A stretch of DNA of 64,000 nt from Ancylomarina sp. DW003. Its GTDB lineage: Bacteria; Bacteroidota; Bacteroidia; Bacteroidales; Marinifilaceae. The stretch spans positions 124,001-188,000 of the forward strand of contig NZ_JAKJSD010000001.1 of NCBI RefSeq assembly GCF_029029505.1. The letters run 5' to 3'. The translations under genes and the position numbers were made by a program. Positions 6,001-23,981 of the stretch are shown here, piece after piece. Each line of letters begins with the position of its first letter. Within the stretch, counting starts at the first letter, position 1. Under the pieces are notes generated by a model, which saw only the letters and a list, made by a program, of their open reading frames with translations, searched no databases and had not been told where the DNA came from.

Positions 6001-8439
6001 AATATTAGTAATACTTATTTTCGATGAATTCAAACTGGTAATGGCAGGGTCAGTAATTTCTACATAATTCTCACCTTCCTTCTTTTCCCATTTGTATTCG
6101 TACCAACTTACATCACCATTCGAAATATCTAATTCGGCCGACTGCCCTAAACAAAAATGTTGAGGTTCGGTAAAATCCTTATAACTATAATTTGGTACAA
6201 CAAGGGCATTAAATTCAGCCTCATCTTCAACAGCAAGTACAAATGAAATACTGTCAAGGGCAAATATCCCCTCCTGACCAGCAGGGTTGGAGTTCACTAT
6301 AGAAATACTAGCCTTTTCTGCTTCACCTGATGCCCAAAATGCTTTAACTGATTGCCAGGCATTTACATCATCTAACTTAAAATTATCATAAATTTTCTCA
6401 TCATTCACATAAATATCAAGTAGCTGCGAATAGCCCTCTTGAGCCATTCTACCATATAATTTCAGGATAAAACTCTGATTTTTGATATTCTCATTGATTG
6501 TTTTTTTCCAAATGATATCTTCTGTCCCAAAATTTGAAGAATGACTTAAAAGCATTAACCCTCCTCCATCTTTATCATTAAAGTTTTCGAATTGAGTGTT
6601 GATATCTTCAGGGTTGTAACACAAAACGGATTTTCCTTGGTCATTCAAATTTCCTGCTGACATAAAATCGTAATCCGAATCAAAATTTCCTCGGCCAATA
6701 GAAAAATTACCATTGTAAATAATATCCAAATTAGGATCTCGAAAATATGCCTTTACAATATACTTGGTTGGTTCATTAGGTGCGTTTACAATAAGATTGG
6801 AATTTTTGAATAGTAAAGATTCAGGCTTAATCTCATTTTTATACCACTCGTAAAAATCTGCTTTTGGCGTACTTTTAATCGACAGTTCAATCTTATCATT
6901 ATAACTTTCACAAACATATCCTAAATCGTGATCGAAGTCAACTCCAGTTTCTGGCGTTATGGGAGAAATAGCTTTTGTAAAGCCTGAAAAATAACCTGCA
7001 GCTCCCACAGCATTATCTTCTATTGATAATGCCACATAGATAGCCTTATTCGACATTACAGATACATTCTCATCAGAAGTAGAGTATTTGTATACGACCC
7101 ATTCATCGTTACCCGAAATCGGCTTAGCCAAAGATTGACTTAACGGACTTGTTGATTTATTAATAAAAACATTGGATCCTTTTTGTGTATAAATGGCTAC
7201 AATACCCGTTCCAATTTGATTGACAAAGGGAATATCCACCTGACGAAATCCCAGAGAACTAATTGCCGGAATAAAATTCATTCCAATCGTAGCATAAGCA
7301 TAATCAATAGTTCCACTTCTACGGTCGGAAGCCGATGTGGTCTGATACAAATAAACATCCTCACTACAACTAATTAACATTGTGCCATCAGCAGTGTAAT
7401 AATTTGTTTCTATTACAAAATAATCGCCTGCATTTAAAGGCGTAGAATTGACCTTTGTTGAGCTTCCATTTATAAATATATTGGTATTGTCTTTTGTTGC
7501 AACAACAATTGGGCGCTCGGTTTCATGATTTCCTTTACCTTTTAATAGAATATACTGACTTCCGACCAAATCTTCTGGCACTATTTGGTCAGCTCCTATG
7601 TCTTGCCACGAATTAAGCGATGCTCCACCTGTCCAAGATCCCGAATTAACAGCGATTGGTTTATCCGAACTAATATGTGTTCCATTTAAACGATTTACAT
7701 CTGTAGCAGTTAAAAACTTATGATCGGCACCAATCACATAAGATTCTCCGGCATTCAAATTTACTGTTATATCACCACTAACAGTGAGTGCCCTTTTTGT
7801 ATCAGAGGTTAAATTACCAACTTTAATATCTGAAAAAGTAACTTGTGTATTATCAACGGTAGCCATTACAGAAATAAAATGGCTACGATGATTTACAACA
7901 TCATTATCTCCATATAAACCCCAACCATAAATATTTTCACCTCGCTTACTGTATAAATGTCCCGAACGAAATGATGTTCCCAAACCTGCTCGCCCTTTTG
8001 CCGTAAGAAACAGTCCATGAATTTCAGATTTATGCCTGACATTAACATAGAAAGCCTCAGTAGAAGTGAAAATTAAACCTTGATCTGTAATTACCTTATT
8101 TAATTTCGAATAGTTGACTACTCCTAAAGGTGGATTAGCCAAAGTACCACTTCCCAGAGCAATAGATTTTGGTGTATTCTTAGAAACTCCGGTCACTAAC
8201 TGAAAAATTGTTCCATCTCCTTTTTTAATTGTGATATCAATGGGAACTTCAGATGGTGTTGTTAAAACTACCCAGTGGTCTTCAATATCGTATTCATGAG
8301 TAGTACCTGCATATAGTGGCGGCACATAGTGAATCAAATCCAATTGAGCCTTTGTTGACTTGGGTAGAACAAATAGTAAAAGTATAACAGCTAGTTTAAA
8401 GCAATTAGAAAAATTTACATAACGAAATATCAGGGTCAT
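1..8439 (-). CDS. Giant Ig-like repeat surface protein, C-terminus beyond the left edge
   Basis: Likely a huge secreted or surface-anchored adhesin-like protein; function not demonstrated. The frame is open from the ATG at 8437-8439 to position 1 (2813 codons). I checked the frame at several anchors along its length, including around 5941, 3828, 2244 and 1-45. The N-terminus has a hydrophobic signal peptide ending near KAQ, then the start LIHYVPPLY shared with the next gene. An IgGFc-binding-protein-like head (about residues 30-500), a jelly-roll-like segment (about 540-740) and a long run of roughly 85-residue Ig-like domains follow, each with CEG-like, W-x-x-(D/N)-G and Y-x-C signatures. 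The last visible residues match about residue 3900 of the 4398-residue paralogue. By that alignment about 490 residues, including a T9SS sorting domain, should lie outside the window. The strong terminator of the upstream paralogue suggests it has its own promoter. The open frame is certain; the adhesin role is inference. Confidence 0.88.
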   Translation of the reverse strand, partial: MTLIFRYVNFSNCFKLAVILLLFVLPKSTKAQLDLIHYVPPLYAGTTHEYDIEDHWVVLTTPSEVPIDITIKKGDGTIFQLVTGVSKNTPKSIALGSGTLANPPLGVVNYSKLNKVITDQGLIFTSTEAFYVNVRHKSEIHGLFLTAKGRAGLGTSFRSGHLYSKRGENIYGWGLYGDNDVVNHRSHFISVMATVDNTQVTFSDIKVGNLTSDTKRALTVSGDITVNLNAGESYVIGADHKFLTATDVNRLNGTHISSDKPIAVNSGSWTGGASLNSWQDIGADQIVPEDLVGSQYILLKGKGNHETERPIVVATKDNTNIFINGSSTKVNSTPLNAGDYFVIETNYYTADGTMLISCSEDVYLYQTTSASDRRSGTIDYAYATIGMNFIPAISSLGFRQVDIPFVNQIGTGIVAIYTQKGSNVFINKSTSPLSQSLAKPISGNDEWVVYKYSTSDENVSVMSNKAIYVALSIEDNAVGAAGYFSGFTKAISPITPETGVDFDHDLGYVCESYNDKIELSIKSTPKADFYEWYKNEIKPESLLFKNSNLIVNAPNEPTKYIVKAYFRDPNLDIIYNGNFSIGRGNFDSDYDFMSAGNLNDQGKSVLCYNPEDINTQFENFNDKDGGGLMLLSHSSNFGTEDIIWKKTINENIKNQSFILKLYGRMAQEGYSQLLDIYVNDEKIYDNFKLDDVNAWQSVKAFWASGEAEKASISIVNSNPAGQEGIFALDSISFVLAVEDEAEFNALVVPNYSYKDFTEPQHFCLGQSAELDISNGDVSWYEYKWEKKEGENYVEITDPAITSLNSSKISITNIKEEHAGRYRCTINFKEAFQQCGVSSGTASVEVDLLVDTPATLSINVDNTKLCEGESTSLEAVVTGTYSNVKWFVNEEQKYVGKEYLFDYPAGNYTVRCEVGNACGSPSDSRDLVVYGRPQLNELQIPLGLCENVSTELTANLNAIPLGASMTYKWYRGEVLLATTNDANYSILPDMDDASYKVSVSATYNVGLASQHICKGNQVVKNITAGKIYPQVDLKPLGDVNLCEGESHIYKAELGTSGDYYTYNWEIPFISTADKTNSDFVIGSVIPSMAGNYKVTVSNRCNSQNSISLLSVDPKLHVDGIEIDKVGPYCLNETVKFTVSDNGEASFYHAENLTTGEIINPISNPFELVVTDLKQGRWKIFAEAKCGNQVTKEFDVYLLADFSDPEMDDISTCIGEDIQFFVTISDIPSGSDLKYEWTDPAGNVTIGDSPYFKVNDVQLVNLGDYTCKVISRCSSKTVTASLSADKINSTLTGSSIELCEGTLNHRFTISYIGNPNFSWHFNDLNSPAISTNEYYEISEIKPENAGVYYCKISLACDDILTYQRELIVNDKINVVEQSASVNHVCENEQVELKIEVGGNHNAIEWFDPDGDEIIAANGKTSIQTGTHSGAGIYKYKYKVSGNCNTIEGDFDVVVHGKPKLAPIADINSCEGDITLNMTITGSDFTSASWWNSDESLKLKDGQVYTILAATDALASGNYIAKINTDYCGNIKTTAEVNVYKPILVLSNSNINPDPCLGEPLNLVVKGSGDGLSYKWYKTDKPAITLSNLSTLDLGVADLSDKGTYRCELISANSCGDKFVEFKVDVHEPVNITIHPLDVSICEGMGSATFTVTAVGDGSLSYQWYDKGGVAIVGETSSKLEITDPLANDGQTYYCEVKDNYCGITVSSKAHLRVKKNVTIIKQPVDVRVAEGGMAVFIVEAEGDEPIIYQWYCEPTGIIAGATNSVLTIDPATIDLNTYKYYCIVSNACSSETSVKAELLVDPNVKITNHPKDVEICEGGTFEFVIEHKTLNPGKTCFWEYNTGSGFKAIDGLPDHSVISNTNKSILKITNANKLLNNYSFRATVEGISNDVSDEVEVKVYQPVSFDPIGDKEICKDAGINIEIKSLKGTSPYSFEWKENTRSWSNSDLNLSGVDALEGDYSVEISNKMCPPHEEKFRISHFDELTVSDISGSDQVCQNNAEKLTVLVSKDEALVDSYRWFKDEDATVISSTDSYTIAGLDKSEGGLYKVEVSDGCITKVKTKMIHIYDEIKATSTWDGTKKLCSGDEFIVEAMVSGDNPVFTWTVPNGRLVGNVSKLKIDEVTEADSGIYKCVVSGTCTGAGDIVFTTELIVNKAPVITKGIDGLSPVCLGENLELGPIIVQGNETSINWILNDGSTSSIHANTLNLAKAEQSEEGNYKVEVSNTCGSDFSLGFQEIITLPTLAAIPAQEVCQGEDVIVRTVTTGEDLTYKWLVDGVEKLAYSGKSELKIDNVQTIDDNTFRIYEIECRVRSLSSCGDEQVEKSQVIVYPNTILQSSLKAEVVYVESDYEFSLDVTGSNLSYEWHHTNKDGVDKLLTETSSSLKLNNLTLDDGGEYSCYISGVCGRRFTSGYLIVKDPLKIVKGLNELSSIEKCYGEPLSLDISVKGEVYKIDWFKDDINLNHHELTYFISELDYTDAGKYHCEINGEGAKLSETVDLIVHKQTVLNSNLRDQILCEKENLFWSLDVEGASLKYDWQYKGTSISDEPVLNLIDLKMDQAGDYRLDISGKCGDVSSEANLEIQKLPYYISHSESVEICENTDETHFRVNYGGDKISYQWRKDGVDIGGENSSSITLRNVKQIDAGTYTCAVNSACSKEFISPEMILKVIPGLKILSESGDLEVCQGEGVDFVVEAKGRDVEYQWQFNGEAIEGANSTNYQIVKTSLKDRGYYTCEISDKCTSKRYSDSKKLDVNALPNAQIYGRMKLCVLEDRVTYTTPDQPEINYLWQVEGGEFTTENIGAKTKITWGELEDGNI
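2245..3828 (-). repeat. Single copy of the six-domain Ig-like block in the smaller giant gene
   Basis: This 1584-nt, 528-codon coding segment runs from the KPI motif to the position before DEI. It aligns domain for domain with each of the three tandem blocks in the neighbouring giant gene (12676-17493). The ISHFDEL motif occurs once here, matching the three HHPDLVL/HHDDLVL motifs there. It represents the unexpanded state of the block. Confidence 0.75.
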
Positions 8440-8973
8440 TTCAAGAATTTTAATTAGCTGGCTAAAATACAAGCAATGAACATAAATAAGAAAACTGTAT
8501 AGTTAATAAATCTTAATAAATTCAACTTGACAAATACAAAAGGATTCTTTTTTATGACAAAAAGCCTTTTTTATTACACTAATAAACATTTCTAAATTTA
8601 CGCAACAAACTAAATACCATCCAAATAATTAATTCTACAACATAAAAACCCCAAAACACAATCGATCATAATAATAAATTTCAATTCAAATAATAATTTC
8701 ACTATCAGAAAGATAGAGTCCTATCATTGTAAATATTAAAAACTACTCTTAATTACGTATCACATACACACTAACACCACAAATCAATGACTAAACACCA
8801 AAAATAAAGCATTAAACATCGTTTTACTTACACTAATGAAAACAGAACACAATGGCAGTTAAATATTATTGTTAATTTTAAAACTAACATCAATTTATAT
8901 AGTAATCCTATTCACAAAAAAAAAGAGTTGACCTCTAGGGCCAACTCTTTCAATCAGGTTTTATAATTTTCGC
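8440..8973. other. 534-bp intergenic region between the two giant genes
   Basis: Very AT-rich. It contains the terminator of the upstream giant gene (8914-8950) and must contain the promoter of the smaller giant gene. I found no exact TAnnTTTG element on the minus strand, only one-mismatch forms. I see no open frame of note, tRNA or repeat. Confidence 0.6.
8914..8950 (-). terminator. Rho-independent terminator of the 4398-residue giant gene
   Basis: On the minus strand, AAAGAGTTG pairs with CAACTCTTT, with a further CC/GG pair near a short loop. The stem is followed by about nine U residues. It lies 24 nt past the stop codon at 8974. Confidence 0.85.
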
Positions 8974-11900
8974 TTAGCGAACTAATATGACATTACCTTT
9001 CTCTTTTACTTTTCCATCTAACATCACAACCCATACATAAGCTCCAACAGGACAATCTTCGCCTTTGTATGTTCCATCCCATCCATTAGCATAACCTGCT
9101 TCATTCGTTTTATAAAGCAATTCACCCCAACGGTTATAGATGTACATTTCAAACTTATCTGTAATGTTGATATCCTTAAGATAAAAACGGTCATTTTCAT
9201 TCTTTGATAAAGGTGTAAATGCATTTGGTGATTCAATACCAATTGGCTTAACAACGACATCAACTGAGTCAGTTGCAACACATCCAATATTATCAACAAC
9301 CTTTAGCTTATAAGTATTCGTTTCACTAACCTCTAATTGTGGTAATACACTACCATCACTCCAATCATAAACATATGGTCCATAATCTGGATTCAAATCC
9401 GGATCAAGCACTATTGTTTGTCCTTCAAATATGACAATACCTGGCTGAATTGTATTATCTAATTTAAACTCCGGCAAAGGATTCATTACAATTCTTTGCT
9501 TTAATTCACAATCATGTTGTTCTACCGTTAATTCATATTCTCCAGGCTTATCAATCACTCTTTCCCAAGCAGTATAACCATCAGTCCAAATTGGATTGGA
9601 TAAATCCTTCGTGTCAATAACAATAGATTCACCCTCGCAAATAAATTGACTTTCTCCTATTTCAGGATTAGGTAAAACTTCAACTCTGATCGATTCTGAA
9701 CCGATACAACCATATTTATCCGTAACATTTATCTGATAATCGTTTACTCCAACTTTTCGTTTTATTAATTTTGGATTCGAATTGGTTGGGTTATCCAGAT
9801 CATCAGCATTGCTCCAGTTGATTTCCTCAATATCACCAGAAATATGAGTTGTTAATTCAATCTCTTTACACTCACCTATAATCGTATCATTTATCGTTGT
9901 TATGAGAGGTAAAGGTGCAACTGTTACATTTACAATATCATTACCAACACAACCATTTTTATCAACAACGGTAGCAACATATAATGTTGTCTCGCCCGCT
10001 GTAAAAGTCGGTGTTTCTGAATTTGGATCATCCAAGAAACGACTTGGTGCCCATCTAATATTATTCTCTTCAGTATTTGCACTTAATAAAGTGCTTCCAC
10101 ATGATCCGACAACAATATCTTCAATTAACTTCACTACTGGTAATGAATCAATAGTCATAGTGGTTTCGCTAGTACTATTCGAACAGCCTAAATCATCGGT
10201 ATATGAATATCGAACTTGGTACTCACCATTACCTTGTGCCGGATCAAATGTATTTTGAGCAACACCATTCACCCAATAGATACCACCTTCAGGCAAACCG
10301 CCGCCAAGATCAAATTCTGGTTCACAAATTCCTCTAGATTCAAGCGTACTCAAAGTAACGTCTGGTAAAGCATGAAGCGTAACCAAAGAATCAATTTCAG
10401 AATAACAACCTGTAGATTCATTTAGAATTTTTAGTTTAACCTTACCATTCAGATCGACATCCCCCCAAGTAATTTTGGTTTTAACCACATCCTCGGCAGG
10501 AGTAGTAAATGCTCCGCCATCAACTAACCAACCATAATTTATGTCTGGCTGAATACTTGTATTATAAGCAACTCTATCTTCGAGTACACAAAGTGTCATT
10601 CTACCAAAAATTTCTGAGTTTGGTAATGAATTTACTTTCAATCTCTTCGAATTAGAATAACGTTTTGCTGTACATTTATCTGATACTTCACAACTGTAAT
10701 ATCCATCTTCCACAAGGCTAGCAGGATTAATAGTCAATTGTGGTGCGTTCTCTCCAGATATAGCAACACCATCTTTTTGCCACTGAAATACTTCATCAGT
10801 TCCTTCAACATCAATAATAAACTGAGCGTTTTCACCATCACAAATTTCCATTCCCGGGCTTTCACTCAATATCTTAAGCTGTGGTATAACAATAAGGTTC
10901 ATTACATGATCACCTGGTGCAACACCACATGTAGAACTAACAACACATTTATACACTCCGGCATCAGTTGTTCTTAAATTTAGAAGTTTAAGTTCCGGGC
11001 TATTAGCTCCGGCAAGATCAACACCATCTTTCTGCCATTGATAAACCAAATTGTCTCCAGTATAACTTACCGTGAATATTGCTTCTGCATCATTTTCACA
11101 TTTTTCTAAATCATTACTCTTACTATCAAACCTTGGTAGCTCATTAACACTTAAATCAGCTTCAGTACTCACACTTCCACACTTACCTGTAATATCAACA
11201 GAATATGTACCGGAAGCAGCAAGAGGTAGAGTCGAAATACGAAGTGTTGCATCAGTCGAAACTGTTGCTCCTCCATATTTCCAATCGTAAATCAATTCCG
11301 AACCTGTTACATCAGGAGTCCATGATAAATTCTCATTTTCACATAATGTCTCATCTACCAAATCAGCATTTAAAACAGTTGTTTTATAAACGATGACATT
11401 AACCGATTGACTACTACTAGCACCTTCACCAACTATTTCGCAACGATACAAGCCTGCGTCAGAAATATCAAGAGCTGGTATTGAATAATTCAATTCATGA
11501 TGACCAAGAGCTGTCGTTCCTTTGTACCAATCGATCGAAAAGATTTCACCTTCAACGCTTATATTCAAGTTTAATGGCTCTCCAAAACACTTCTCAATAT
11601 TAGCAAGAGTATTTAAACCTTCAACCACTTTTAATGGATCCTTAACTGTCAAATATCCCGAAGTAAAACGAACACCACAGTCACCGGTAATCTTACACGT
11701 ATACTCTCCGGCATTCGCCAAACTAAGATTATTAAGGGTTAACGTTTTTGTTGTTTCACCAAGAGGAACAGAAGTGCCATCAGTTTTTATATGAGTCCAT
11801 TCAAAGACTAGATTACCACCAGTTACATCTAAATCGAATTCATGATCAGTTCCAACATAAACAACTTCACCTTTAAGTGACTTATTCAGAATTGTATTTG

Positions 11901-14900
11901 GATTCACAGTAACACTAGCAAGTTCACTTAAGTTTGTTCCACAAGAACTTACTCTACACTCCACATCATAAACTCTAGAGGTGAAAAGTGAACCAGATAA
12001 TACATTTGCAATTTCTAGTTCTGCTATATCATCAAATGCTGCTTGAGGAGCTCCATCAAGAAACCAACGATACGTTAAATCCTCACCTGTTGTTACAGCT
12101 CTAAAAATAACATCTTCACCCTGACATGCTATTTGATTATCGATAGCATCTAGAGTTGGAATTGGTTGCACATCCTGGAAACCGATACTAAAATCAGTTC
12201 CACAAGCATTGGTCACCTCAACTCTGTAATTACCCTCTTCAATAAGATCTGCATTAGCTAGATCTAAATTAGGATTCGTTTCACCTGATTTTACAAGATT
12301 ATTAAATTTCCAAATAATACTTTCTCCTCTTGTAGCATCATAAGCGATAGGTCCAAGACTTAATGGTTCATTTACACACACAGCACCCAAACCTTCGATA
12401 CCTGCTGTAATATTAGGTACATCATTCACAAGAATGTTAGTAGTATAAGTTATTGATGTACCACAGCTACCAGAAACAACGCAAATATAAGTTCCTTCAT
12501 TTACTCCGGTAACAGCATCAACTTTAATACTAACTACGTTTCCTGGATTTGTTACTCCAACTGGAACAGTCCATGAATATGTTGGATTATCACCCGTCAC
12601 TTTAGCTTCAAGCAATAACTCATCACCAACACATAGTGATTGATTTGTCCATACACCTGTCGCTACAAGCTCATCTAAGATATCAATGTTTATGGACTTC
12701 GATTGAGTCATACAATGATCTTCAACTGTGACCTTATATAAACCACTTTCCGTATCAGTAACATTCGATTTACTGTATGTTGCTGTGGCTTCAACTAAAT
12801 CAACATCATCTTTAGTCCACGAATAAGTTGCTGCTATTGCAGGTCCACTTGATAAAACAGCATTTAAACTGATATCATCTGTTGGACAAAGTTCTGTAGC
12901 ATGAATCAAATCATCTAATACTAAATCATCGTGATGAGAAATACTAAATGTATTCACTGTTGCAGGACAAACACCAGCAGTAACACCTATAGAATAAGTT
13001 CCATCTGTGGCATCAGCAGCTATTAAATTCAAACTTGAATTAGTACCTAAATTTCGAACACCTTCAGTCCACTGATAAGTGTTTGGAATAGATCCTGACA
13101 AATTATCAACAATAAAGCTAGCTCCATCACCATTACAAAGCACTTCACTTGCAATAGGATCAAAAGTCGCTGGAATATCAACCCGAACACTTACATCATT
13201 CGATACATTATTCTCATAATTCGTTCGCTTAACTACTGCTCTAAATTCCCATGAATTCATAACATTAGTTGCTGTAGTAATTGTTAATTCAGAATAACTA
13301 GGGGCACTATTGTCAATTGTTCCTAGTCCTCCAATTGCATTGTAAATCCCATCGTTATCATCATCATACTCCCAAACACAATCATCTGTCGTATTCTTAT
13401 AATCAACCCTAAATGTGAACGGATTTCCTTCACAAACTTCAGTGCTTTCAGCATGTACTAGAATTCTATTCTCTTTAATAACAGTAACAGCTGCAGGATC
13501 ACTTTCATCATCTAAACATGTTCCCGTTACGACACACTTATATGTATAACCATTATTTGCAAATGGAACAGAAGTTAATGTCAAAGTCTTAGTTTGAGCA
13601 GAAACTGGCGTACTTCCCATACTCACACCATTCTCATACCACTGATAAGTTAAACCTGTACCTGTTGCATCAACTGTAAATGTTGCGTCACCCCTTTCAT
13701 CAATCGTGATATTATCAGGATGATTTGTAATTGTTACATTTTCATTTACGGTAAACAAAGCCTTATCAGACTCATCTGATTTACATGCTCCACTTACAAT
13801 ACAATAATAATTTTGACCACTATTGGTTATAATATTATCAACATCAATACTTGTACCTGTTTTACCAGCCATCAAGCCAGTATTATTGTACCACTGATAT
13901 GTTAATGGTCCTTCTCCAGAAGCTGTTACTACAAAACTTGATGTAGATCCATTTTCACATAAAGTTATTGAAGCTGGATCACTAACGGATACATCTTCTT
14001 GTACAGTAACTGTAAAATCTTGATCAGGTCTTGTACAATCCGGAGTTGAACTTAGTACGCAACGGTAATAATTTGCACCAGTTGTTGTTAAAGAAGCAAT
14101 ATGATAATCTTTATCAGTCGATAAGACGCCACTAACTGTTGATCCGCCAAGTGCATCAATCTTATACCAATTATAAACCAAATCCTCACCCGTTCCGTTA
14201 ACTTGAAGGTCTACAGATTCTCCTTCACAAATTGTTTGACTAGCAGGCGAAACGGCTGCTAAAGAAATTGCATCTAATACATTGATTGATACCGAAGATG
14301 TTTTTGAAGTACATACATCCGCAACAACAACCTTATATATTCCACTCTCTGTAGTATTAACACTCAAATCACTATAGGTTGGATCATCTATACCAATAGC
14401 TCCACCATCTTTTGTCCAAGCATATGAAACTTCTGGTGCCGGACCTTCAGTTAACACAGCACTTAAATTAATATCGCCTCCTATACAGAGCGGATTTGCA
14501 TGTGTGATATCTGTTAACACTAAATCTGGATGATGTGCAATATTAAAGTCCTGATCTACATCTGGACATATAGAGTTAGAAACATTCACATTATATGTTT
14601 CACCTACGGCTTCCACATCAGATAAAGTTAAGCTTGACAAATCACCTAAATTATCTCCCGACGCTACCCTAGTCCATGTATAATCAAAAGGCCCTGTTCC
14701 TGTCGTAATATTAACATTAAAGGTCTCGCCTGTATTTGGACATAAAGTTACATCTGAAATTGTAGCGAACGTTATTTTCTGAAAAACATTAACCCTCGCA
14801 ACACTAGATTCTTCCGGACCTCCATCAATAATCAATTTAAACTTCCAATTATTCATTGCGAGATCTGAATCTAAAACAGTTAAGACATTTGTTTTAATAG

Positions 14901-17900
14901 TTCCATCATCAGAAACAGCTTGAGTACCTACAGATCCTGGTATTGGATCATAAACATCATCATTATCATCATCATACACCCACACACCAGCAGCCGCAAT
15001 CTTATATTTCACCTCAAAATCAAATGATAAATCTTCACATATCTCAACATTATGAGGTTGACTTGTAATTTTATCAGTCACATTAATTGTTAGTATTGCA
15101 GGATCTGAATCAACTGTAGCACAATTACCATTAACTTTACAATAATAACTATCTCCACTTGTAAAATCTGCAGCCAACACTTCTAAAGTTTTAGTTTGCG
15201 CCGAAGCTGGTGTATTTACCATATCCACACCATTCTTATACCATTGGTAATTTAATCCACTACCATTTGCATCAACAGAAAAATACACTGGATCAATTGC
15301 AAGATCAGATACACTCACACTAACAGGTTGTGTCGCAATACTCACATTTTCATCAACAGTGAATAAGGCTTTATTAGATTCTGCATCTTTACAAGCTCCT
15401 TCTACAACACAATGATAATTATGCCCATTGTTTAGTAATATGTTATCAACGGATAAACTTGCTAGTGTTTTACCTGGCATCAATACATCATTATCAAACC
15501 ATTGATACGATACTGGGACACCTTTAGTTACTGTTACTGTAAAATTTGAAGAACCTAAATCCTCACAAATGGTAATTGGAGCAAGAGGATCTAATTCTAT
15601 ATCTTCTTGAACATTAACAGTAAATTCCTGCACCGAAGTATTACAATTAGGCGTTGAACTAAGAACACATCTATAATAGTTTGCACCAATTGATGTCAAT
15701 GCATCTAAATGATAATCTTTATCATTGGACAAAACACCACCAACTACTGCTCCAAGTAGAGCATCAATCTTATACCAAGTATAAACCAGATTATCTCCTG
15801 TTCCATTAACTTGAATATCTACGGGTTCTCCTTCACAGATTGTTTGAACTGGAAGAGACACAGCTGCTAAACTAATTGCATCCAATACATTAATTGATAC
15901 TGAAGATGTTTTTGAATTACACACATCCGCAACTACAACTTTATAGATACCACTTTCTCCAGTAGTAACATTTAATTTACCATATGTATTACTTGGCTCT
16001 AATAAATCAGTCCCGTCTTTCGTCCATGTATAAGTTACACCTGGTGCTGGCCCTTCAGTTAATAGAGCACTTAAACTAATATCATCTCCTATACATAACG
16101 GACTTGCATGAGCAATATCTGTTAACACTAGATCTGGATGATGTGTAATATTAAAGCCATCAGGTACAGGATCACAAACATTATTACTTACCTCAACAGT
16201 ATAGGCTCCATCAATTGCAGAAACTGCATCCAAATTTAAACTTGAACCAGATCCTAAATTCGTTGCTCCCCTTTTCCATTCATATGTAAATGGTCCCGTT
16301 CCTGCAGTAATATTAACATTAAAACTTTCCCCTACATTAGGACATAAAGTTGCATCTGCAATATCGGTAAAAACAACCTGTTCAAATACCTTAACACTTA
16401 CTGGATTAGATACATTATCTACATAACCAGTTCTCTGAACTCGAGCTCTAAACTTCCAGGAATCTGTTTCCATCGCCGTTGTAGCGGTAGTAACTGTCAA
16501 TGTAGAAGAGGTTCCCCCAGAGACAACGCCACCTATTCCGCTTGCATCTGAATAACCAGATCCATCATCATATTCCCAAACACATCCAGTAGCAGTAGCT
16601 TTATAATCTACAGTGAAAATAAATGAACTTCCCTCACAGGCTTCAGCATTCACAGCTTGAACTGTTATTCTATTATCAATATTCACATTTAATGTTGCTG
16701 GATTACTATCCTTAAAATCACAAGAATTTGTAACCTTACAATAATATGTATTGCCATCATATGAATAAGGTATATTAGATAAATTCAAACTAGCCGTTTG
16801 TGCAGACGCTGGTGTAGCATCCATACTTACACCATTCTCGTACCATTGATAAGTAATTGTCCCACCACCTGTAGCAACTACAGAAAAAGTAACTGATCCA
16901 TTCTCATCAATTGTCTGAGATACAGGATGGTTTGTTATTGAAATATCTTGTATTACATCTAAACTAACTTTATCAGATTCAGCATACTCACAAAAATCAC
17001 CACTTACTTTACAGTGAAATAAATCAGCATTGTGTCCAACTACATTTGAAACGGTTAAAGTTCCCGTTGCAGTACCAGCAAAATCAGGACTATCACTTAT
17101 TTGAACATTGTTACTAAACCACTGATAAGATGGAGAATCTTCTGCAGTTCCTGTAACAGTAAAAATTGCAGACGCATCATCACATGGTGTTTGAGGAAGA
17201 GGTTGCAGTGTAACTTTTGCATGTTCTCGTACATCAACTCCAAAAATCACATCTACATTCGCACATCCATTTCCGGACACAAGTTCACATCTATAAGTCG
17301 CTTCATCAGTCAAATCTGCCACACCTAAGTCAAGAATATTCTCAACAGCTTGAACAGGAAGTATCAAACCATCTTTATACCACCTATATGATAAACCACC
17401 TCCGTCGCCATCTCCGTTTACAAATAAACTTAATGGTTCTCCAATACATGGTGTTGGATTCGATTCTGATTTTGCAAGAACAGTAATTGGTTCGTATACA
17501 CTTACTTTAGCAATAGTTGTCACCTCTCCACAATAATCTGAACTTATCTTTGCAATATAGTTTCCTGAAGACGCAGGATATGTGGCTCCGATAATAGTAT
17601 GATTTAAACCATCTTCCAACTTCACACTCTCATCAGAATTCCACCATTGCGGATCTTTATAATCAGTACCAACCACAGTCATAATTAAAGGAATATCACC
17701 AACACAAGCATTAATGTCAGCAATAGGATTTAGACTTGGCTTATCATGCACAGTAACAACAAAACTTGCTTCAGGATTTTCACAATCCCCGGCTAACACG
17801 CACTTATAATTTAATATGCCTGCCGAATTTAAAATTCCTGTTGATATTCTGGTTTTTCCTTCATGAGCAACTAATTCAGTCCCTCCATTATCAAACCATT

Positions 17901-20900
17901 TAATTGAATTAGGAGTTCCCGTAATATTTACAATCAATTCTGTTTGTTCTCCTTCACAAATATCCAATATCGATGCAGGATCTGCACTAATAGAAATATG
18001 ATCGTTTACGATTAACTCTTGTTGATATTTTAAGACAGAACCACAAGCAAGTGTTATATCACAATAATAAACACCGGCATTAGCCAACTCAACTGTAGGA
18101 ATAGTATATGAATCAAGAGTACCGATAACAGTTCCAGCAGGATTGTTGAATCTCCATTCAAAAGTTGGAGTTCCCACATAAGTTATATTAAAACTATGAT
18201 TCAGTGTACCTTGACATACTTCAACCGGATTTGGCTTTAAAGCGCTTGTTACACTTTGTATGTTTAAGTTCGCAGCAACAGTTTTACTATAACCACATTT
18301 GTTTTCAATTAAGCAAGAATACAAACCTAACTCATCAGCTTGAACATCTATAATATCCAAAATAGCAGTTCCACTATCTACAATCGGTGATCCTACAGGA
18401 ACAGTCCAAGTATAAGTCAACTCAGAACCAGAAGGAATAGTTTCAATTTGAACTTCAAATCTGGCATCTTCACCAAAACAAGTTGTAATATCACTCAAGG
18501 ATGGATCTGAAAAATTCTCCAATACATCAATGGTAAATGGCTCTTGATAAGTTGTTCCACAATTACCTATAGCTGTGATATTCCAAATACCTTCATTTGC
18601 GGTATTAGCAGTTAAAGTAAACGGACTCAGAATAGGATCAATAATTTGCTCCTGACCAATTGTTATATTTTCGGCCTTATAATGATTAGCATCATCAGCA
18701 TCTATAGTAAATTTAACAAGATCTCCACTACAATATGGCCCCACATTATCAATGGTAATATCTCTAGCATCCATTTTTGGTGTTACACTTAAGACACTTG
18801 TTGAATTTGCGGTACCACAGCGGTTTGATACGGTCACCTTATAATTTCCTGCCATAGCAGTCGTTATATCCGTCAGGCTCAAATCAGGATTACTTTTATT
18901 TCCACCTACTGCAGCAGGCGTTTCCCATAAATAAGTATAATAATTTCCAGAAGTTTCTAAATCTGCGCTATACAAATAAGCTTCTCCCTCGCATAAAGTG
19001 ACTGGCACAAGATCAGTCAATACTACTTGTGGATAAATATCAGTAGCTGATAAATTCACAATTTTCTCATTCCCTGGACAAGTGTGTGTAAGTCCTGAAC
19101 CAACATCATATTGGGCAGAAACTGATACTTTATAATACGAATCAGTTATATCAGGAGTTATAAGCTGGGTATTAACACTACTTGTGCTAAATGGTAATAT
19201 ACTTTTATCTGTATACCATGAAAATTCCATCGTTGCACCTGCAGGAAATGAGCCTAATGCTGTCAGAGTCACCTCATCGGAATGGCACAAATCAGTTGGA
19301 ACCTGCAAGCCCGTTAAGTTTGGATTACCAAATATTTCGATTTGTAATTCTTGTGATAATGGCGCACAAGCGTTCTCAACATCACAACGAATTGTATATA
19401 CGCCTGCTCCGTTCGACTTATCCAGGTTGAAATCAAATACATTTCCTTCTGATATTTCAACACCATTAACCGACCAGGCAATTCGACTAAATTTCCCTTC
19501 TACATTAACTTCAAGAGGTACTGACTCCCCTTGACAAATATCTTTTTCTCCCGTTAAGGATACAATTCTAGCAAGTTCGTCAACAATAACTTCAACCTCC
19601 AAATGTGCAGGTTCTACAGATGAACCACACTGTTGAAATTCTTCCTTAAATGTTATGGTACATTGATATATACCAGCATTGTTATCTGCAATATTTGTAA
19701 AACCAAGAATATGACTATCTAAACCTGTTACATTTGTTTCCGCTACTGGTATATAGTTCTCTCCATCTTTTCTTTTCCACTCATAATTATACCAACTGGT
19801 ATCTCCATTGGAAATATCAATATCCCCGGATTCTTCCTTACAAATATGTGTTGGTGCGTGTGGAGTAAAACTATAGTTTGGTACAACTAGTGCATTGAAT
19901 TCACCTTCTTCTTCTACAGAAATAGCAAATGCAACCGTATCAATTGCAAAAACACCTGATACTCCTGAAGCATTCGCATCAACTAATTTGATCGTAGCTT
20001 TCTGATTGTCCTTTGATTTCCATAACATATCAACAGATTGCCACTTGCTTACATCATCTAATAAAAAATTAGATTTTATTTTTTCTTCATTGATGTAAAC
20101 ATCTATTAATTGCGGTTTAAGCTCTTGAGCCATTCGCCCTACTACACTAATTATATAATTCGTGTTTCGGTCAATTGGCATATCCTCTTTCTTATAAATA
20201 TCTTTTGATTGCCCATCTGAATAAACAATCAACATCTTTTCTCTACCTTCTTCAGGATTAACATCTATAAAATTTGTATTTTCAACCTTAGGTGTAGTGC
20301 TTATTCCATAAGTACCTGGATCCTGCATATTACCTTCTGATAAATCAAATCCTGTTGTAAACACAACTTGACCAGAATTAAAATTAGCATTTGTATTAAT
20401 ATTCAATGCCGGATCTCTATAGTAGGCCTTCAGAATGTATTTTGTAGGCACATCCGGAGCAAGTTCTTTTAGTTTCTCACTTTCGAATATTAAACTATCC
20501 TCAGTAACCTCATTTCTATACCACTCGTAGAAATCTGGTTCTGGTGTTGATACAAAACCAACCTCAATATAGTCATTATAACTCTCACATATTATATCCA
20601 AATCTGTTTCAATATTGACCTCAGGAGTAATTTTAGGTATTGCTTTAGAGAAACCTGAATAATATCCTGCAGATCCAATATACCCCGACTGAACAGTCCA
20701 AGCCACATTTATCGCCTTATCTGCTTGAAAACTTAAATGCCCATCTACATTGAGTATTTTATAACTTTTCCATTCGGGGGCGCCTTGAATGGATGTAGCA
20801 TTAGATTCGTTTAATAATGTCGATGCGCCTCCATCAACTGAATAATTTATCTCTGCTCCATTCTGAGCTAATATAGTAACAACAGCAGTAACTCCTTTTT

Positions 20901-22170
20901 TTGCCAATTCTCCCGAATAGGGTACATCAACCTGATGCATACCTGTTGCAGCAAGAGGAGCAATAAAGTTCATACCAACTGTAGGTCCGATTGTAGATGC
21001 ACTACCTGACATTGTTTGATAGACATAGACATTCTTTTCATCGGTATCAATAAACATAGTAGGTATACCCTTCCCATCCGGATCTGTGTAGAAAGATTCA
21101 GGAATTACAAGGTGTTCACCAGCTGACAATGGACTACTCGGGTTAATTGCGGCACCTGATCCGTTGACATAGACATAAGTATCATCAACAGTGGCAACAA
21201 CAATAGGTCTTTCAGTTCTTCCATCTCCTTGACCTTGCATCACAACATATTGGTCTCTAATTTGATCGTAGGGAACAATCTGATCAATACCCATATCCTG
21301 ACCATCATTAGGTCCGGCAGTCCAGGATCCTGTATTAACAACGATATCTTTATCAGCCAAAATATGAGTACCATTCATATCATTTATCTTATTACCGTCT
21401 ATTTTTGGTAAATCATGATCAATGGCAATCACATAACTTTGACCTTTATTTAATGTAATTTCAGGTAAAGCATTTGAGGCAGGAACATCAAAACTGTAAT
21501 CAGTTGGTACATTGTAATCTGTTAATATTCCCGATTTAAGATCAGAAATATTAACTTTAGTTCCATCTTCTGTTGCCATTACCGAAATAAAATGCGATCG
21601 TCTACTGGTAGCTTTATAAGCATTATCAGTATAAACATGTCCAGAACGAAACTCCTTACCAAGCGCAAAACGACCTTTTGTGGTTAATGAGCCACCTTGT
21701 ACACTACTTACGTGCCTAATATTAACATAAATAGGTTCATCGTAAGATCTAAATTTTAAACCATCTTCCGTCAAAATCTGATTTAATTTATTAGGTCCAA
21801 TCACACCGTATGGAAAATCATATACTGTAGGGCTCGAAATAGTTCCAGTAGCATTATCATTTGTAGTTCTAAATTGATACCTGTAAGGCGCTGACTTAGA
21901 AACTTGAATAGTAATAAAAGCAACATCAGCCCCCCCTTTAAAGATATCTACATCAATTAAGGATTCTGAATTGGTTGTAATTACAGCAACATGTGTCCCA
22001 ATATCACCAGAATTACTTGAACCATCATACAATGGCGGCACATAGTGGATATAATCCAATTGAGCAAAAAGTTTGGGGGCAAATAAACTTAATACAAGAA
22101 CCGTAAAAAGCCTCAATAAAAACGATGAGCACAACATGCCCCGTTTATCATTCACAGTATAATTATCCAT
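8974..22170 (-). CDS. Giant Ig-like repeat protein with T9SS/gliding-motility C-terminal domain
   Basis: A 4398-residue secreted protein, probably a cell-surface adhesin or filament exported by the type IX system; the role is inferred from architecture. A signal peptide ends at FAPKLFAQ. The ATG at 22137 would also give a good signal peptide. Residues about 45-510 resemble the IgGFc-binding-protein N-terminal domain (GTHILADKDIVVNTGS, DQIVPYDQIRDQYVV). Residues about 600-760 look like a jelly-roll binding module. From about 770 to 3900 there are roughly three dozen Ig-like domains with two cysteines and a Y-x-C motif, including three tandem six-domain blocks (residues about 1560-3165). PKD-like domains follow. 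The last 90 residues form a CHU_C/type B sorting domain (PNAFTPLSKNENDRF, YNRWGELLY, PVGAYVWVV). A paralogue lies directly downstream. The T9SS plug gene at 24665-25954 is part of the matching secretion machinery. Confidence 0.9.
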   Translation of the reverse strand: MDNYTVNDKRGMLCSSFLLRLFTVLVLSLFAPKLFAQLDYIHYVPPLYDGSSNSGDIGTHVAVITTNSESLIDVDIFKGGADVAFITIQVSKSAPYRYQFRTTNDNATGTISSPTVYDFPYGVIGPNKLNQILTEDGLKFRSYDEPIYVNIRHVSSVQGGSLTTKGRFALGKEFRSGHVYTDNAYKATSRRSHFISVMATEDGTKVNISDLKSGILTDYNVPTDYSFDVPASNALPEITLNKGQSYVIAIDHDLPKIDGNKINDMNGTHILADKDIVVNTGSWTAGPNDGQDMGIDQIVPYDQIRDQYVVMQGQGDGRTERPIVVATVDDTYVYVNGSGAAINPSSPLSAGEHLVIPESFYTDPDGKGIPTMFIDTDEKNVYVYQTMSGSASTIGPTVGMNFIAPLAATGMHQVDVPYSGELAKKGVTAVVTILAQNGAEINYSVDGGASTLLNESNATSIQGAPEWKSYKILNVDGHLSFQADKAINVAWTVQSGYIGSAGYYSGFSKAIPKITPEVNIETDLDIICESYNDYIEVGFVSTPEPDFYEWYRNEVTEDSLIFESEKLKELAPDVPTKYILKAYYRDPALNINTNANFNSGQVVFTTGFDLSEGNMQDPGTYGISTTPKVENTNFIDVNPEEGREKMLIVYSDGQSKDIYKKEDMPIDRNTNYIISVVGRMAQELKPQLIDVYINEEKIKSNFLLDDVSKWQSVDMLWKSKDNQKATIKLVDANASGVSGVFAIDTVAFAISVEEEGEFNALVVPNYSFTPHAPTHICKEESGDIDISNGDTSWYNYEWKRKDGENYIPVAETNVTGLDSHILGFTNIADNNAGIYQCTITFKEEFQQCGSSVEPAHLEVEVIVDELARIVSLTGEKDICQGESVPLEVNVEGKFSRIAWSVNGVEISEGNVFDFNLDKSNGAGVYTIRCDVENACAPLSQELQIEIFGNPNLTGLQVPTDLCHSDEVTLTALGSFPAGATMEFSWYTDKSILPFSTSSVNTQLITPDITDSYYKVSVSAQYDVGSGLTHTCPGNEKIVNLSATDIYPQVVLTDLVPVTLCEGEAYLYSADLETSGNYYTYLWETPAAVGGNKSNPDLSLTDITTAMAGNYKVTVSNRCGTANSTSVLSVTPKMDARDITIDNVGPYCSGDLVKFTIDADDANHYKAENITIGQEQIIDPILSPFTLTANTANEGIWNITAIGNCGTTYQEPFTIDVLENFSDPSLSDITTCFGEDARFEVQIETIPSGSELTYTWTVPVGSPIVDSGTAILDIIDVQADELGLYSCLIENKCGYSKTVAANLNIQSVTSALKPNPVEVCQGTLNHSFNITYVGTPTFEWRFNNPAGTVIGTLDSYTIPTVELANAGVYYCDITLACGSVLKYQQELIVNDHISISADPASILDICEGEQTELIVNITGTPNSIKWFDNGGTELVAHEGKTRISTGILNSAGILNYKCVLAGDCENPEASFVVTVHDKPSLNPIADINACVGDIPLIMTVVGTDYKDPQWWNSDESVKLEDGLNHTIIGATYPASSGNYIAKISSDYCGEVTTIAKVSVYEPITVLAKSESNPTPCIGEPLSLFVNGDGDGGGLSYRWYKDGLILPVQAVENILDLGVADLTDEATYRCELVSGNGCANVDVIFGVDVREHAKVTLQPLPQTPCDDASAIFTVTGTAEDSPSYQWFSNNVQISDSPDFAGTATGTLTVSNVVGHNADLFHCKVSGDFCEYAESDKVSLDVIQDISITNHPVSQTIDENGSVTFSVVATGGGTITYQWYENGVSMDATPASAQTASLNLSNIPYSYDGNTYYCKVTNSCDFKDSNPATLNVNIDNRITVQAVNAEACEGSSFIFTVDYKATATGCVWEYDDGSGYSDASGIGGVVSGGTSSTLTVTTATTAMETDSWKFRARVQRTGYVDNVSNPVSVKVFEQVVFTDIADATLCPNVGESFNVNITAGTGPFTYEWKRGATNLGSGSSLNLDAVSAIDGAYTVEVSNNVCDPVPDGFNITHHPDLVLTDIAHASPLCIGDDISLSALLTEGPAPGVTYTWTKDGTDLLEPSNTYGKLNVTTGESGIYKVVVADVCNSKTSSVSINVLDAISLAAVSLPVQTICEGEPVDIQVNGTGDNLVYTWYKIDALLGAVVGGVLSNDKDYHLDALTSIGANYYRCVLSSTPNCNTSVQEFTVNVQEDIELDPLAPITICEDLGSSNFTVTVTKGVPVSYQWFDNDVLMPGKTLASLSVDNILLNNGHNYHCVVEGACKDAESNKALFTVDENVSIATQPVSVSVSDLAIDPVYFSVDANGSGLNYQWYKNGVDMVNTPASAQTKTLEVLAADFTSGDSYYCKVNGNCATVDSDPAILTINVTDKITSQPHNVEICEDLSFDFEVKYKIAAAGVWVYDDDNDDVYDPIPGSVGTQAVSDDGTIKTNVLTVLDSDLAMNNWKFKLIIDGGPEESSVARVNVFQKITFATISDVTLCPNTGETFNVNITTGTGPFDYTWTRVASGDNLGDLSSLTLSDVEAVGETYNVNVSNSICPDVDQDFNIAHHPDLVLTDITHANPLCIGGDINLSAVLTEGPAPEVSYAWTKDGGAIGIDDPTYSDLSVNTTESGIYKVVVADVCTSKTSSVSINVLDAISLAAVSPASQTICEGESVDLQVNGTGEDLVYNWYKIDALGGSTVSGVLSTDKDYHIASLTTTGANYYRCVLSSTPDCTRPDQDFTVTVQEDVSVSDPASITLCENGSTSSFVVTASGEGPLTYQWYNNTGLMAGKTGTSIDVDNIITNSGQNYYCIVSGACKSDESDKALFTVNENVTITNHPDNITIDERGDATFTVDATGTGLTYQWYENGVSMGSTPVSAQTKTLTLTSVPFANNGYTYKCVVTGTCLDDESDPAAVTVIKENRILVHAESTEVCEGNPFTFRVDYKNTTDDCVWEYDDDNDGIYNAIGGLGTIDNSAPSYSELTITTATNVMNSWEFRAVVKRTNYENNVSNDVSVRVDIPATFDPIASEVLCNGDGASFIVDNLSGSIPNTYQWTEGVRNLGTNSSLNLIAADATDGTYSIGVTAGVCPATVNTFSISHHDDLVLDDLIHATELCPTDDISLNAVLSSGPAIAATYSWTKDDVDLVEATATYSKSNVTDTESGLYKVTVEDHCMTQSKSINIDILDELVATGVWTNQSLCVGDELLLEAKVTGDNPTYSWTVPVGVTNPGNVVSIKVDAVTGVNEGTYICVVSGSCGTSITYTTNILVNDVPNITAGIEGLGAVCVNEPLSLGPIAYDATRGESIIWKFNNLVKSGETNPNLDLANADLIEEGNYRVEVTNACGTDFSIGFQDVQPIPTLDAIDNQIACQGEDVIFRAVTTGEDLTYRWFLDGAPQAAFDDIAELEIANVLSGSLFTSRVYDVECRVSSCGTNLSELASVTVNPNTILNKSLKGEVVYVGTDHEFDLDVTGGNLVFEWTHIKTDGTSVPLGETTKTLTLNNLSLANAGEYTCKITGDCGVRFTSGYLTVKDPLKVVEGLNTLANIEKCFGEPLNLNISVEGEIFSIDWYKGTTALGHHELNYSIPALDISDAGLYRCEIVGEGASSSQSVNVIVYKTTVLNADLVDETLCENENLSWTPDVTGSELIYDWKYGGATVSTDATLRISTLPLAASGTYSVDITGKCGSVSTEADLSVNELPRFDSKSNDLEKCENDAEAIFTVSYTGDNLVYQWQKDGVDLAGANSPELKLLNLRTTDAGVYKCVVSSTCGVAPGDHVMNLIVIPQLKILSESPGMEICDGENAQFIIDVEGTDEVFQWQKDGVAISGENAPQLTINPASLVEDGYYSCEVSDKCTAKRYSNSKRLKVNSLPNSEIFGRMTLCVLEDRVAYNTSIQPDINYGWLVDGGAFTTPAEDVVKTKITWGDVDLNGKVKLKILNESTGCYSEIDSLVTLHALPDVTLSTLESRGICEPEFDLGGGLPEGGIYWVNGVAQNTFDPAQGNGEYQVRYSYTDDLGCSNSTSETTMTIDSLPVVKLIEDIVVGSCGSTLLSANTEENNIRWAPSRFLDDPNSETPTFTAGETTLYVATVVDKNGCVGNDIVNVTVAPLPLITTINDTIIGECKEIELTTHISGDIEEINWSNADDLDNPTNSNPKLIKRKVGVNDYQINVTDKYGCIGSESIRVEVLPNPEIGESQFICEGESIVIDTKDLSNPIWTDGYTAWERVIDKPGEYELTVEQHDCELKQRIVMNPLPEFKLDNTIQPGIVIFEGQTIVLDPDLNPDYGPYVYDWSDGSVLPQLEVSETNTYKLKVVDNIGCVATDSVDVVVKPIGIESPNAFTPLSKNENDRFYLKDINITDKFEMYIYNRWGELLYKTNEAGYANGWDGTYKGEDCPVGAYVWVVMLDGKVKEKGNVILVR
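12676..14274 (-). repeat. Tandem six-Ig-domain block, copy 3 of 3
   Basis: A 1599-nt (533-codon) in-frame unit running from LDAISLAAV to just before DELVATG. It includes HHDDLVLDDL. Its last domains are more diverged from copies 1 and 2. A domain with a WEYDDDNDGIYN loop lies in this copy. Confidence 0.8.
14275..15882 (-). repeat. Tandem six-Ig-domain block, copy 2 of 3
   Basis: A 1608-nt (536-codon) in-frame unit beginning at DAISLAAVSLP. Over 120 nt at the boundary, compared by eye, it is about 80% identical to the equivalent DNA of copy 3. That indicates tandem duplication rather than independent domain gain. It carries HHPDLVLTDI and a VYDDDNDDVYD loop. Confidence 0.8.
15883..17493 (-). 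repeat. Tandem six-Ig-domain block, copy 1 of 3
   Basis: A 1611-nt (537-codon) in-frame unit beginning at EPITVLAKS. Its third to sixth domains match copies 2 and 3 closely (HHPDLVLTDIAHAS). Its first two domains are more diverged and closer to the single copy in the neighbouring giant gene. Confidence 0.75.
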
Positions 22171-23836: not shown

Positions 23837-23981
23837 GATATGTTGTTTAATGGTGTAATAATTAAAATATCTTAACAGATTCACTATCTCATTAATCAAC
23901 GAGAATCTTTTCCGTCAAAACAGACGAAAGATAAAAATTAACTTCGAATAATCCCTATTAAAAAATCTTAATAGAGCGCAC

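Follow-up and report, generated by a model that had tools for sequence, protein, structure and literature searches.

Here we describe a pair of giant genes, A and B, in a stretch of 64,000 nucleotides (nt) from Ancylomarina sp. DW003, of the family Marinifilaceae (contig NZ_JAKJSD010000001.1, positions 124,001 to 188,000; hereafter the window), whose source genome is an assembly of 4.84 Mb in 70 contigs. Within a long run of immunoglobulin (Ig)-like domains, the protein of gene A carries three tandem blocks of six domains each, of which its neighbour B carries one. Among relatives the number of blocks differs at this one site, fresh duplications are found in some of them, and one segment of the block region, which we call the cassette, conflicts in its grouping with both flanks. 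We think it probable that block growth together with cassette replacement, in a fibre that would be exported by the type IX secretion system (T9SS) and exposed at the surface, accounts for the whole of these observations. The main features are as follows (position 1 is the first nucleotide of the window):

8974..22170, (-) strand: gene A, 4398 amino acids (aa); N-terminal region homologous to the IgGFc-binding region of B, then 35 contiguous Ig-like domains, further C-terminal domains and a T9SS type-B sorting domain
1..8472, (-) strand: part of gene B inside the window, 3309 aa in total, ending beyond the window at C1:122543; IgGFc_binding PF17517, 23 contiguous Ig-like domains, TIGR04131 end
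10633..19869, (-) strand: Ig-like run of A, residues 768-3846, by an iterated hidden Markov model (HMM); Pfam Ig_3, I-set and Ig_7
8977..9234, (-) strand: T9SS type-B sorting domain of A (TIGR04131 / CHU_C), residues 4313-4398
15883..17493, (-) strand: block 1 of A, 537 codons, six Ig-like domains
14275..15882, (-) strand: block 2 of A, 536 codons, six Ig-like domains
12676..14274, (-) strand: block 3 of A, 533 codons, six Ig-like domains
2245..3828, (-) strand: sole block of B, 528 codons
15187..16362, (-) strand: junction module copy 1 (self-BLAST), A residues 1937-2328, from block 1 domain 5 to block 2 domain 3
13585..14760, (-) strand: junction module copy 2, A residues 2471-2862, from block 2 domain 5 to block 3 domain 3

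An HMM built from these proteins counts 35 Ig domains of 71-95 aa in A (residues 768-3846) and 23 in B (residues 766-2761). The difference is 12 domains, or 2 x 6, and thus corresponds to two six-domain blocks. The three in-frame blocks of an initial annotation of this DNA (17493-15883, 15882-14275 and 14274-12676; 537, 536 and 533 codons) were recovered exactly and stay open in a single frame, as was the single block of B (3828-2245, 528 codons), and the HMM gives six domains in each block, the number that had been assigned. Counted from a TTG start of B, A is longer by 4398-3309 = 1089 aa; two blocks (1606-528) explain 1078 of these extra residues, in keeping with the annotated length gap of about two blocks. 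The register shift between the proteins that had been noted, 22 residues before the block and 1100 after it, is true from the first ATG of B and becomes 11 and 1089 from the TTG start. The N-terminal 857 residues of A are 47% identical to B; Pfam reports IgGFc_binding in the N-terminus of B (E 1.7e-30) and none in A at E<=0.001. A further gene of the window genome (G000:C56:216679-218142, open frame 1663 aa) has an N-terminal region 35% identical, and five relatives have a similar one.

An alignment of the four blocks, which the annotation had proposed as a check, places the three blocks of A at 46-50% aa identity to one another and the block of B at 32-36% aa and 50-52% nt from them. For whole blocks of A the aa and nt identities are 50 and 61% (1-2), 49 and 62% (2-3) and 46 and 58% (1-3), and the longest exact common runs are 17 nt (1-2), 12 nt (1-3) and 18 nt (2-3). 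The copies in the window are therefore old, with 58-62% nt identity and no exact run above 18 nt. A search of its own genome with block 3 returned blocks 2 and 1 and the block of B at E 2.4e-144, 1.9e-123 and 3.0e-86; the remaining eight weaker matches all lie within A and B. The blocks are unreported by Tandem Repeats Finder, whose longest period is 500. The longest direct match in self-BLAST joins residues 1937-2328 to 2471-2862 (71% over 1191 nt), and because it crosses the block boundaries of the initial annotation, the phase of the blocks is a matter of convenience. Identity peaks at the junctions, with 72% for domain 6 of blocks 1 and 2 and 70% for domain 1 of blocks 2 and 3. The annotation's estimate of about 80% over 120 nt for copies 2 and 3 is borne out locally, at 77% over 300 nt (13990-14289 vs 15598-15897; the first ~285 nt of block 3 plus 15 nt before it, against the equivalent of block 2), whereas outside the junctions the divergence between copies is strong. 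When domains are compared by their separation along the protein, the best identity peaks at a separation of six in A (72%), A. salipaludis (84%) and the relative G003 (74%), and at four in G010 (100%) and M. fragile (97%).

An AlphaFold model of block 3, from an alignment of four sequences, is almost all beta, with a mean predicted local distance difference score (pLDDT) of 84 and a predicted template modelling score (pTM) of 0.48 in the best of five models (pLDDT of the worst, 58.8). Among solved structures it is most like titin I65-I70 (Foldseek E 5.7e-27, 16% identity), and numerous other Ig chains match as well. In sequence comparisons with solved proteins, 9ncf (an 'Immunoglobulin-like domain protein') and 9c2d (a tail protein) come first, followed by titin and other Ig chains. 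GhpA, a giant protein of Aureispira, which belongs to the Bacteroidota, was considered as a family member and rejected, being found neither in the 13 sequence matches of A (E<=0.001) nor in the best 60 of 91 block-profile matches. For titin it has been proposed that adjacent near-identical Ig domains are disfavoured (PMC12241362). Shuffling of the domain order gave no significant avoidance between neighbours in the window protein (neighbour mean 26.6 vs 26.6, p 0.52; maximum p 0.57), no significant one in A. salipaludis or G003, and a weak one in G010 (maximum p 0.039) and M. fragile (p 0.071).

Genes with the N-terminus of A are found well beyond the window. Its 857 N-terminal residues were matched at E<=1e-60 in 22 of the 56 genomes of the family, the window's own included, and in 6 of the 17 genera; a scan of the genome contigs with an alignment gave 19 loci. 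Our collections hold one genome per species, and variation in block number is thus variation between species. In 20 of the 22 genomes the block region was readable from end to end; in G008 and G022 contig ends interrupt it. Three six-domain blocks are present in 3 of the 20, namely the window genome (G000), Ancylomarina salipaludis SHSM-M15 (G001) and G003, in which the N-terminus lies on a separate contig. Four have one six-domain block: G002, gene A of A. euxinus M1P (G004), L. filiforme (G067) and G074. Two four-domain units of ~370 aa plus a full block make up the array in 12 (G013, G024, G069, G016, G026, G066, G068, G071, G072, G012, G032 and G073), and six such units plus one block in G010. 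Block numbers differ inside genera as well: they are 3, 3, 3, 1 and 1 in genus g1; in g13, G067 has one block and the other seven readable genomes two units plus one; in g5, G074 has one, G032 and G073 have two units plus one, and two others are cut by contig ends. The records of M. caeruleilacunae and M. breve also have two units plus one. Under a proposal published in 2025, both Ancylomarina and Labilibaculum would become part of Marinifilum (PMC12325347). Gene B has a single block in all four genomes in which it was read (G000, G001, G002, G004).

Recent duplications were found in two relatives. In M. fragile, 1409 nt recur at 95.2% with a shift, or unit, of 1104 nt, and the copies in G010 are up to 93.5% identical with exact runs of up to 274 nt. 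The suggestion in the initial annotation that such repeats let the protein change length by recombination therefore stands in part: whole-block number differs within three genera and M. fragile has a fresh unit duplication, while the notion that the present copies in the window would be good substrates is unsupported at an 18-nt run and 58-62% nt identity.

Other giant-gene sequences were seen in these genomes. A. euxinus (L046, L111) has a third giant gene after gene A, with at least two blocks and split over two contigs, in which 282 nt recur in the first two blocks at 95.7%. Marinifilum sp. D737 (L119, L125) and M. breve (L127, L130) each have a second, differing N-terminal part on a short contig (3097 and 3375 nt); at its two ends this part matches the main copy at ~81-90% identity. 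A search of D737 gave only one C-terminal half with a strong match. In both genomes the extra part may be a second gene with collapsed repeats or an alternative N-terminus.

Besides changing in number, the block region seems to be replaced. We profiled the nt identity of the 12 proteins with two units plus one in windows of 75 codons. Orthologues are mostly 80-100% identical outside the block region and 45-67% inside. G013 and G024 fall from 94-100% (two other windows at 82 and 90%) to 52-67% at residues 1998-2351 of G013, with 69-79% just upstream; G066 and G068 fall from 83-100% to 54-59% with shoulders of 74-75%; and G032 and G073 are 80-95% identical in the first 13 windows and from residue 2858 onwards, 45-55% at 1925-2563, and lower on either side of that stretch. 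Across genera the cassette can be more similar (G012-G032 76-86%, G013-G026 69-75%, G024-G016 67-86% nt); within g13, G016 and G072 share it at 68-94% nt. No cassette-like drop was present in the two pairs of B that were profiled.

We built trees of the N flank, the cassette and the C flank and compared groupings by approximately unbiased (AU) tests; the cassette tree carries a long-branch warning. G013 with G024, and G032 with G073, are clades at 99.5-100% in both flanks and are rejected by the cassette (AU p 5e-9 and 5e-62). Conversely, the cassette clades of G012 with G032 (100/100) and G013 with G026 (97/94) are rejected in both flanks (p 6e-4 or lower). Both flanks unite G026, G066, G068, G071 and G072 in a clade (91/94 and 100/99.9) that the cassette rejects (p 4e-4). 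The pairing of G066 with G068, which the flanks do not reject (p 0.23, 0.31), is likewise rejected by the cassette (p 3e-39). Two groupings are less tidy: G024, G016, G071, G072 and G069 do not form a clade of their own in the cassette, since G068 also falls among them, and G073 loosely so (AU p 0.10), and G016, G071 and G072 are rejected in the N flank, cassette and C flank alike. This conflict between cassette and flanks points to modular exchange, apparently across genera. The swap is seen in L. euxinus A4, L. manganireducens, Labilibaculum sp. K2S, M. flexuosum and M. fragile, whose records carry no metagenome label, so the result is independent of G013, which is a metagenome assembly. The mosaic also extends beyond the cassette, since G012 shifts its place between the N and C flank trees and G071 (L069) and G072 (L070), 98-100% identical elsewhere, are 78-96% identical at residues ~1077-1498 (G013 numbering), upstream of the cassette.

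To look for silent donor cassettes, we compared the DNA of the 56 family genomes with the cassettes of G024, G013 and the window; strong matches (at least 71% identity across ~1 kb or longer) occurred only at giant-gene loci, an absence that is not absolute because at most 7, 7 and 5 first-look candidates per genome were scored. On other contigs the matches span 29-47 bases (G009 C7, G032 C9, G074 C231, G069 C112, G003 C73), and the match on G004 C34 is a fragment of a giant gene. Outside the giant genes, G024 has a region with an E1/transketolase-like gene (L085) whose best aligned piece is 89.5% identical to the window genome (L080), with G013 (L097) at 75.2%; G024 and its near relative G013 are 93.2% identical there. 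Recent transfer is possible for this region, as is contamination, for which G024 is listed at 5%.

The window itself seems to hold traces of recombination between its blocks. Its outer blocks are 61 and 60% aa identical to those of A. salipaludis, the middle ones only 44%; judged by sequence, block 2 of A is not orthologous to the A. salipaludis middle block. Domains 2-5 of block 1 are 63-69% aa identical to A. salipaludis block 1, and domains 3-6 of block 3 are 61-78% identical to its block 3. G003, nearer to the window by one housekeeping-gene region (81% nt), matches it block by block in order at 67, 60 and 65% aa. Within block 2 of the window, domains 1-2 are nearest to block 3, domains 5-6 nearest to block 1, and domains 3-4 are the most diverged. 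The affinity of domains 1-2 to block 3 and of domain 6 to block 1 recurs in all three genomes; that of domain 5 to block 1 is clear in the window only (57 vs 35%). Copies of the junction domains, namely domain 6 (blocks 1 and 2) and domain 1 (blocks 2 and 3), are 70-83% alike within the window or A. salipaludis and 38-44% alike between these genomes, and the pattern is reversed in domains 2-5 of block 1 and 3-6 of block 3. This is the pattern that unequal crossing over between two blocks, once per lineage, would leave. Trees of domains 1-4 unite window blocks 2 and 3 (96/99), those of domains 5-6 unite blocks 1 and 2 (100/99), and max-chi2 reaches 58.4, 91.8 and 54.2 (p 0.0005-0.0045, codons permuted in runs of 10 or 30), compared with 2.3-12.1 in 10 of 11 other three-copy proteins.

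We propose that the three blocks are super-repeats that arose when several Ig domains were copied together at one favoured site of the shaft, most simply by unequal homologous recombination between adjacent blocks. This would have happened independently in different lineages, the copied unit having four domains in Labilibaculum, Marinifilum and G010 but six in Ancylomarina, and the number of blocks would have changed within genera. The block region would also be replaced by divergent alleles common to several genera; the simplest route would be homologous recombination in which the conserved flanks anchor the incoming DNA. As an outcome, the length and the middle surface of the fibre would change fast while its base and secretion signal are retained. 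The likely benefit would be a varied reach and an escape from recognition by phages, predators or partner surfaces. Phage pressure on such proteins is only suggested, by analogy: the phage receptors of F. columnare, described as unknown, are considered likely to belong to the gliding machinery (PMC7345892).

Several observations weigh against this proposal. The adhesive or recognition role of the fibre is one that we only infer. The groups for the AU tests were chosen after the identity profile had been seen, and G013, G069, G071 and G074 are metagenome assemblies. No fresh duplication was seen in the window genome, where the longest exact run is 18 nt, and the junction domains are 61-75% alike between the window and G003, as alike as within each, so they are shared by both and not newly made. 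Domain 5 of block 2 is tied in its affinity in G003 (51/51%) and A. salipaludis (52/51%). Of the 10 proteins with low max-chi2, three still reach p 0.014-0.039 by site permutation. The statistic is also high when the roles of the blocks are swapped (60.5 for A. salipaludis block 1, 54.2 and 45.5 for block 3; window block 1 in the middle role, at 20.2, is the exception), so that mosaicism is indicated and the hybrid copy is not named. Finally, domains 3-4 of blocks 1 and 3 are closer to one another than to block 2 in all six comparisons, an oddity of block 2 that a single clean crossover would not predict and that needs further change.

Other explanations account for part of the data. The three blocks might be ancestral to Ancylomarina and born only once, with junctions homogenised by gene conversion, a fast middle block, and deletions in the one-block genes. 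The one-to-one correspondence of all blocks in G003 speaks for this, as do the orthologous outer blocks of A. salipaludis, the jump between blocks in the protein alignment of G001 and G002, and the single block of G004, whose domains 5-6 cluster with the third block of the window and of A. salipaludis (89/86), the outcome expected of a deletion. However, the A. salipaludis middle block shows no special affinity to its counterpart in either the window or G003 (44% in each case; within G003 it matches block 3 best, at 49%), and in the whole-block tree the one-block G002 and G004 stand together (100/99) beside B (91/94), not with the three-block alleles; we therefore regard a single ancestral origin as doubtful, if worth keeping in mind. 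It seems unlikely to us that the middle is a recognition module with a discrete pool of alleles under balancing selection, recombining between genera and serving self/non-self, phage or partner discrimination on titin-like super-repeats; there are about three allele classes of the cassette among the 12 Labilibaculum and Marinifilum type proteins in the trees.

That the hypervariable stretch diversifies in place, by point change under positive selection and without exchange, would fit the finding that further stretches of the protein are variable too. Yet the otherwise near-identical pairs G013-G024 and G066-G068 drop from 94-100% to ~45-65% nt within one or two domains, the cassettes of the cross-genus pairs G012-G032 (76-86%), G013-G026 (69-75%) and G024-G016 (67-86%) are more alike than those of the close pairs G013-G024 (52-67%) and G032-G073 (45-55%), and AU tests reject the flank groupings within the cassette, which leaves little room for this explanation. 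Assembly artefacts of a repetitive gene might be suspected where the contigs of G003, G004, G008 and G022 end within these genes and where genomes are metagenome-assembled. Against this, the divergence among the window copies precludes their collapse, the multi-copy state occurs in three genomes assembled as one contig (G010, G016 and G072), and the swap is found in pairs without a metagenome label (L. euxinus A4 with L. manganireducens, M. flexuosum with M. fragile), so we consider artefacts very improbable. The fibre might also be a prey-catching hook like GhpA instead of a general adhesin, and four GhpA fragments are indeed among the best 23 Foldseek matches (E 1.2e-21 to 1.3e-17, 18-19% identity), with a fifth at rank 41. 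Since titin ranks first and many eukaryotic Ig chains match too, the resemblance is that of a generic Ig-string fold, and a hook is the explanation to which we give the least credit.

For growth by blocks with replacement of the cassette, the reading we prefer, a setting at the cell surface is suggested by the ends and the neighbours of the genes. TIGR04131 scores 48.5 bits in A and 56.1 bits in B (C-terminal 809 aa scanned) at a cut-off of 35. By eye the N-terminus of A is hydrophobic and may hold a signal peptide. The next open reading frame past B, on the same strand, is a PorP/SprF gene (PF11751, E 3.2e-55; L009:15403-16392), so that B sits between A and the SprF-like gene. Close upstream of A lie:

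22448-23899, (-) strand: M24 peptidase
24038-24499, (-) strand: AsnC-type regulator
24665-25954, (-) strand: T9SS plug-domain protein PF17116, beyond the M24 and AsnC genes

The AsnC and M24 genes upstream and the SprF-like gene downstream are retained in relatives (M24 at 12 loci, SprF-like at 8, counting only loci whose fetched stretch included that flank). A and B are thus predicted to be T9SS type-B substrates in the layout of SprB-type adhesins, and the domain and the neighbouring gene suggest export by this system and display at the surface.

SprB-type adhesins of Flavobacterium johnsoniae are T9SS type-B substrates with a cognate PorP/SprF shuttle (PMC12618676). A and B resemble them in the TIGR04131 C-terminus, the very large size and the porP/sprF-like gene directly downstream, and differ in the Ig-like array with multi-domain super-repeats, the IgGFc-binding-like N-terminus and the placing of two giant genes before one SprF-like gene. 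Length variation in surface proteins has been described for Periscope Proteins (PMC9704523), which likewise have tandem folded domains, Ig-like ones included, in numbers that differ between relatives, and whose repeats exceed 50 residues, as do the Ig domains (71-95 aa) and blocks (528-537 aa) here; the surface location of A is a predicted one. Their repeats are highly identical, however, whereas those of the window are at 58-62% nt and high identity is confined to G010 and M. fragile; the unit here is one of four or six domains, and the variation in its number was seen between species, in three genera. Super-repeats of six and ten Ig domains are likewise known, from titin/connectin (PMC12241362), where tandem six-Ig blocks also differ in number between lineages, although titin is a muscle protein of eukaryotes in which each domain of that segment has a single exon, and Ig strings match one another generically. 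Domain exchange in T9SS cargo is known from Kgp, RgpA and HagA of P. gingivalis (PMC5266723), surface proteins of another member of the Bacteroidota that have mosaic domains out of step with the strain tree and, in HagA, a variable number of repeats; those are cleaved adhesin domains, studied mainly within one species, while the Ig blocks described here are apparently exchanged between species and genera. GhpA (structures 9flp, 9flw and 9fly; review PMC11205867) is a giant T9SS-secreted protein with Ig-like domains, which A resembles at the level of the fold, with no GhpA among the sequence matches listed, the heptameric predation hook being a feature of GhpA. Among the literature matches listed (titles and abstract starts) we found no description of the gene, of the cassette, or of four- and six-domain units at one site together with cross-genus cassettes, which is not proof of absence. 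In conclusion, these genes offer a bacterial case, traceable over 20 genomes, of a giant Ig-string protein that grows by multi-domain blocks, a question also posed for titin. Within an otherwise conserved gene one cassette outpaces its surroundings and appears to cross genus borders, and it might be a concrete place to seek what recognises these marine bacteria.

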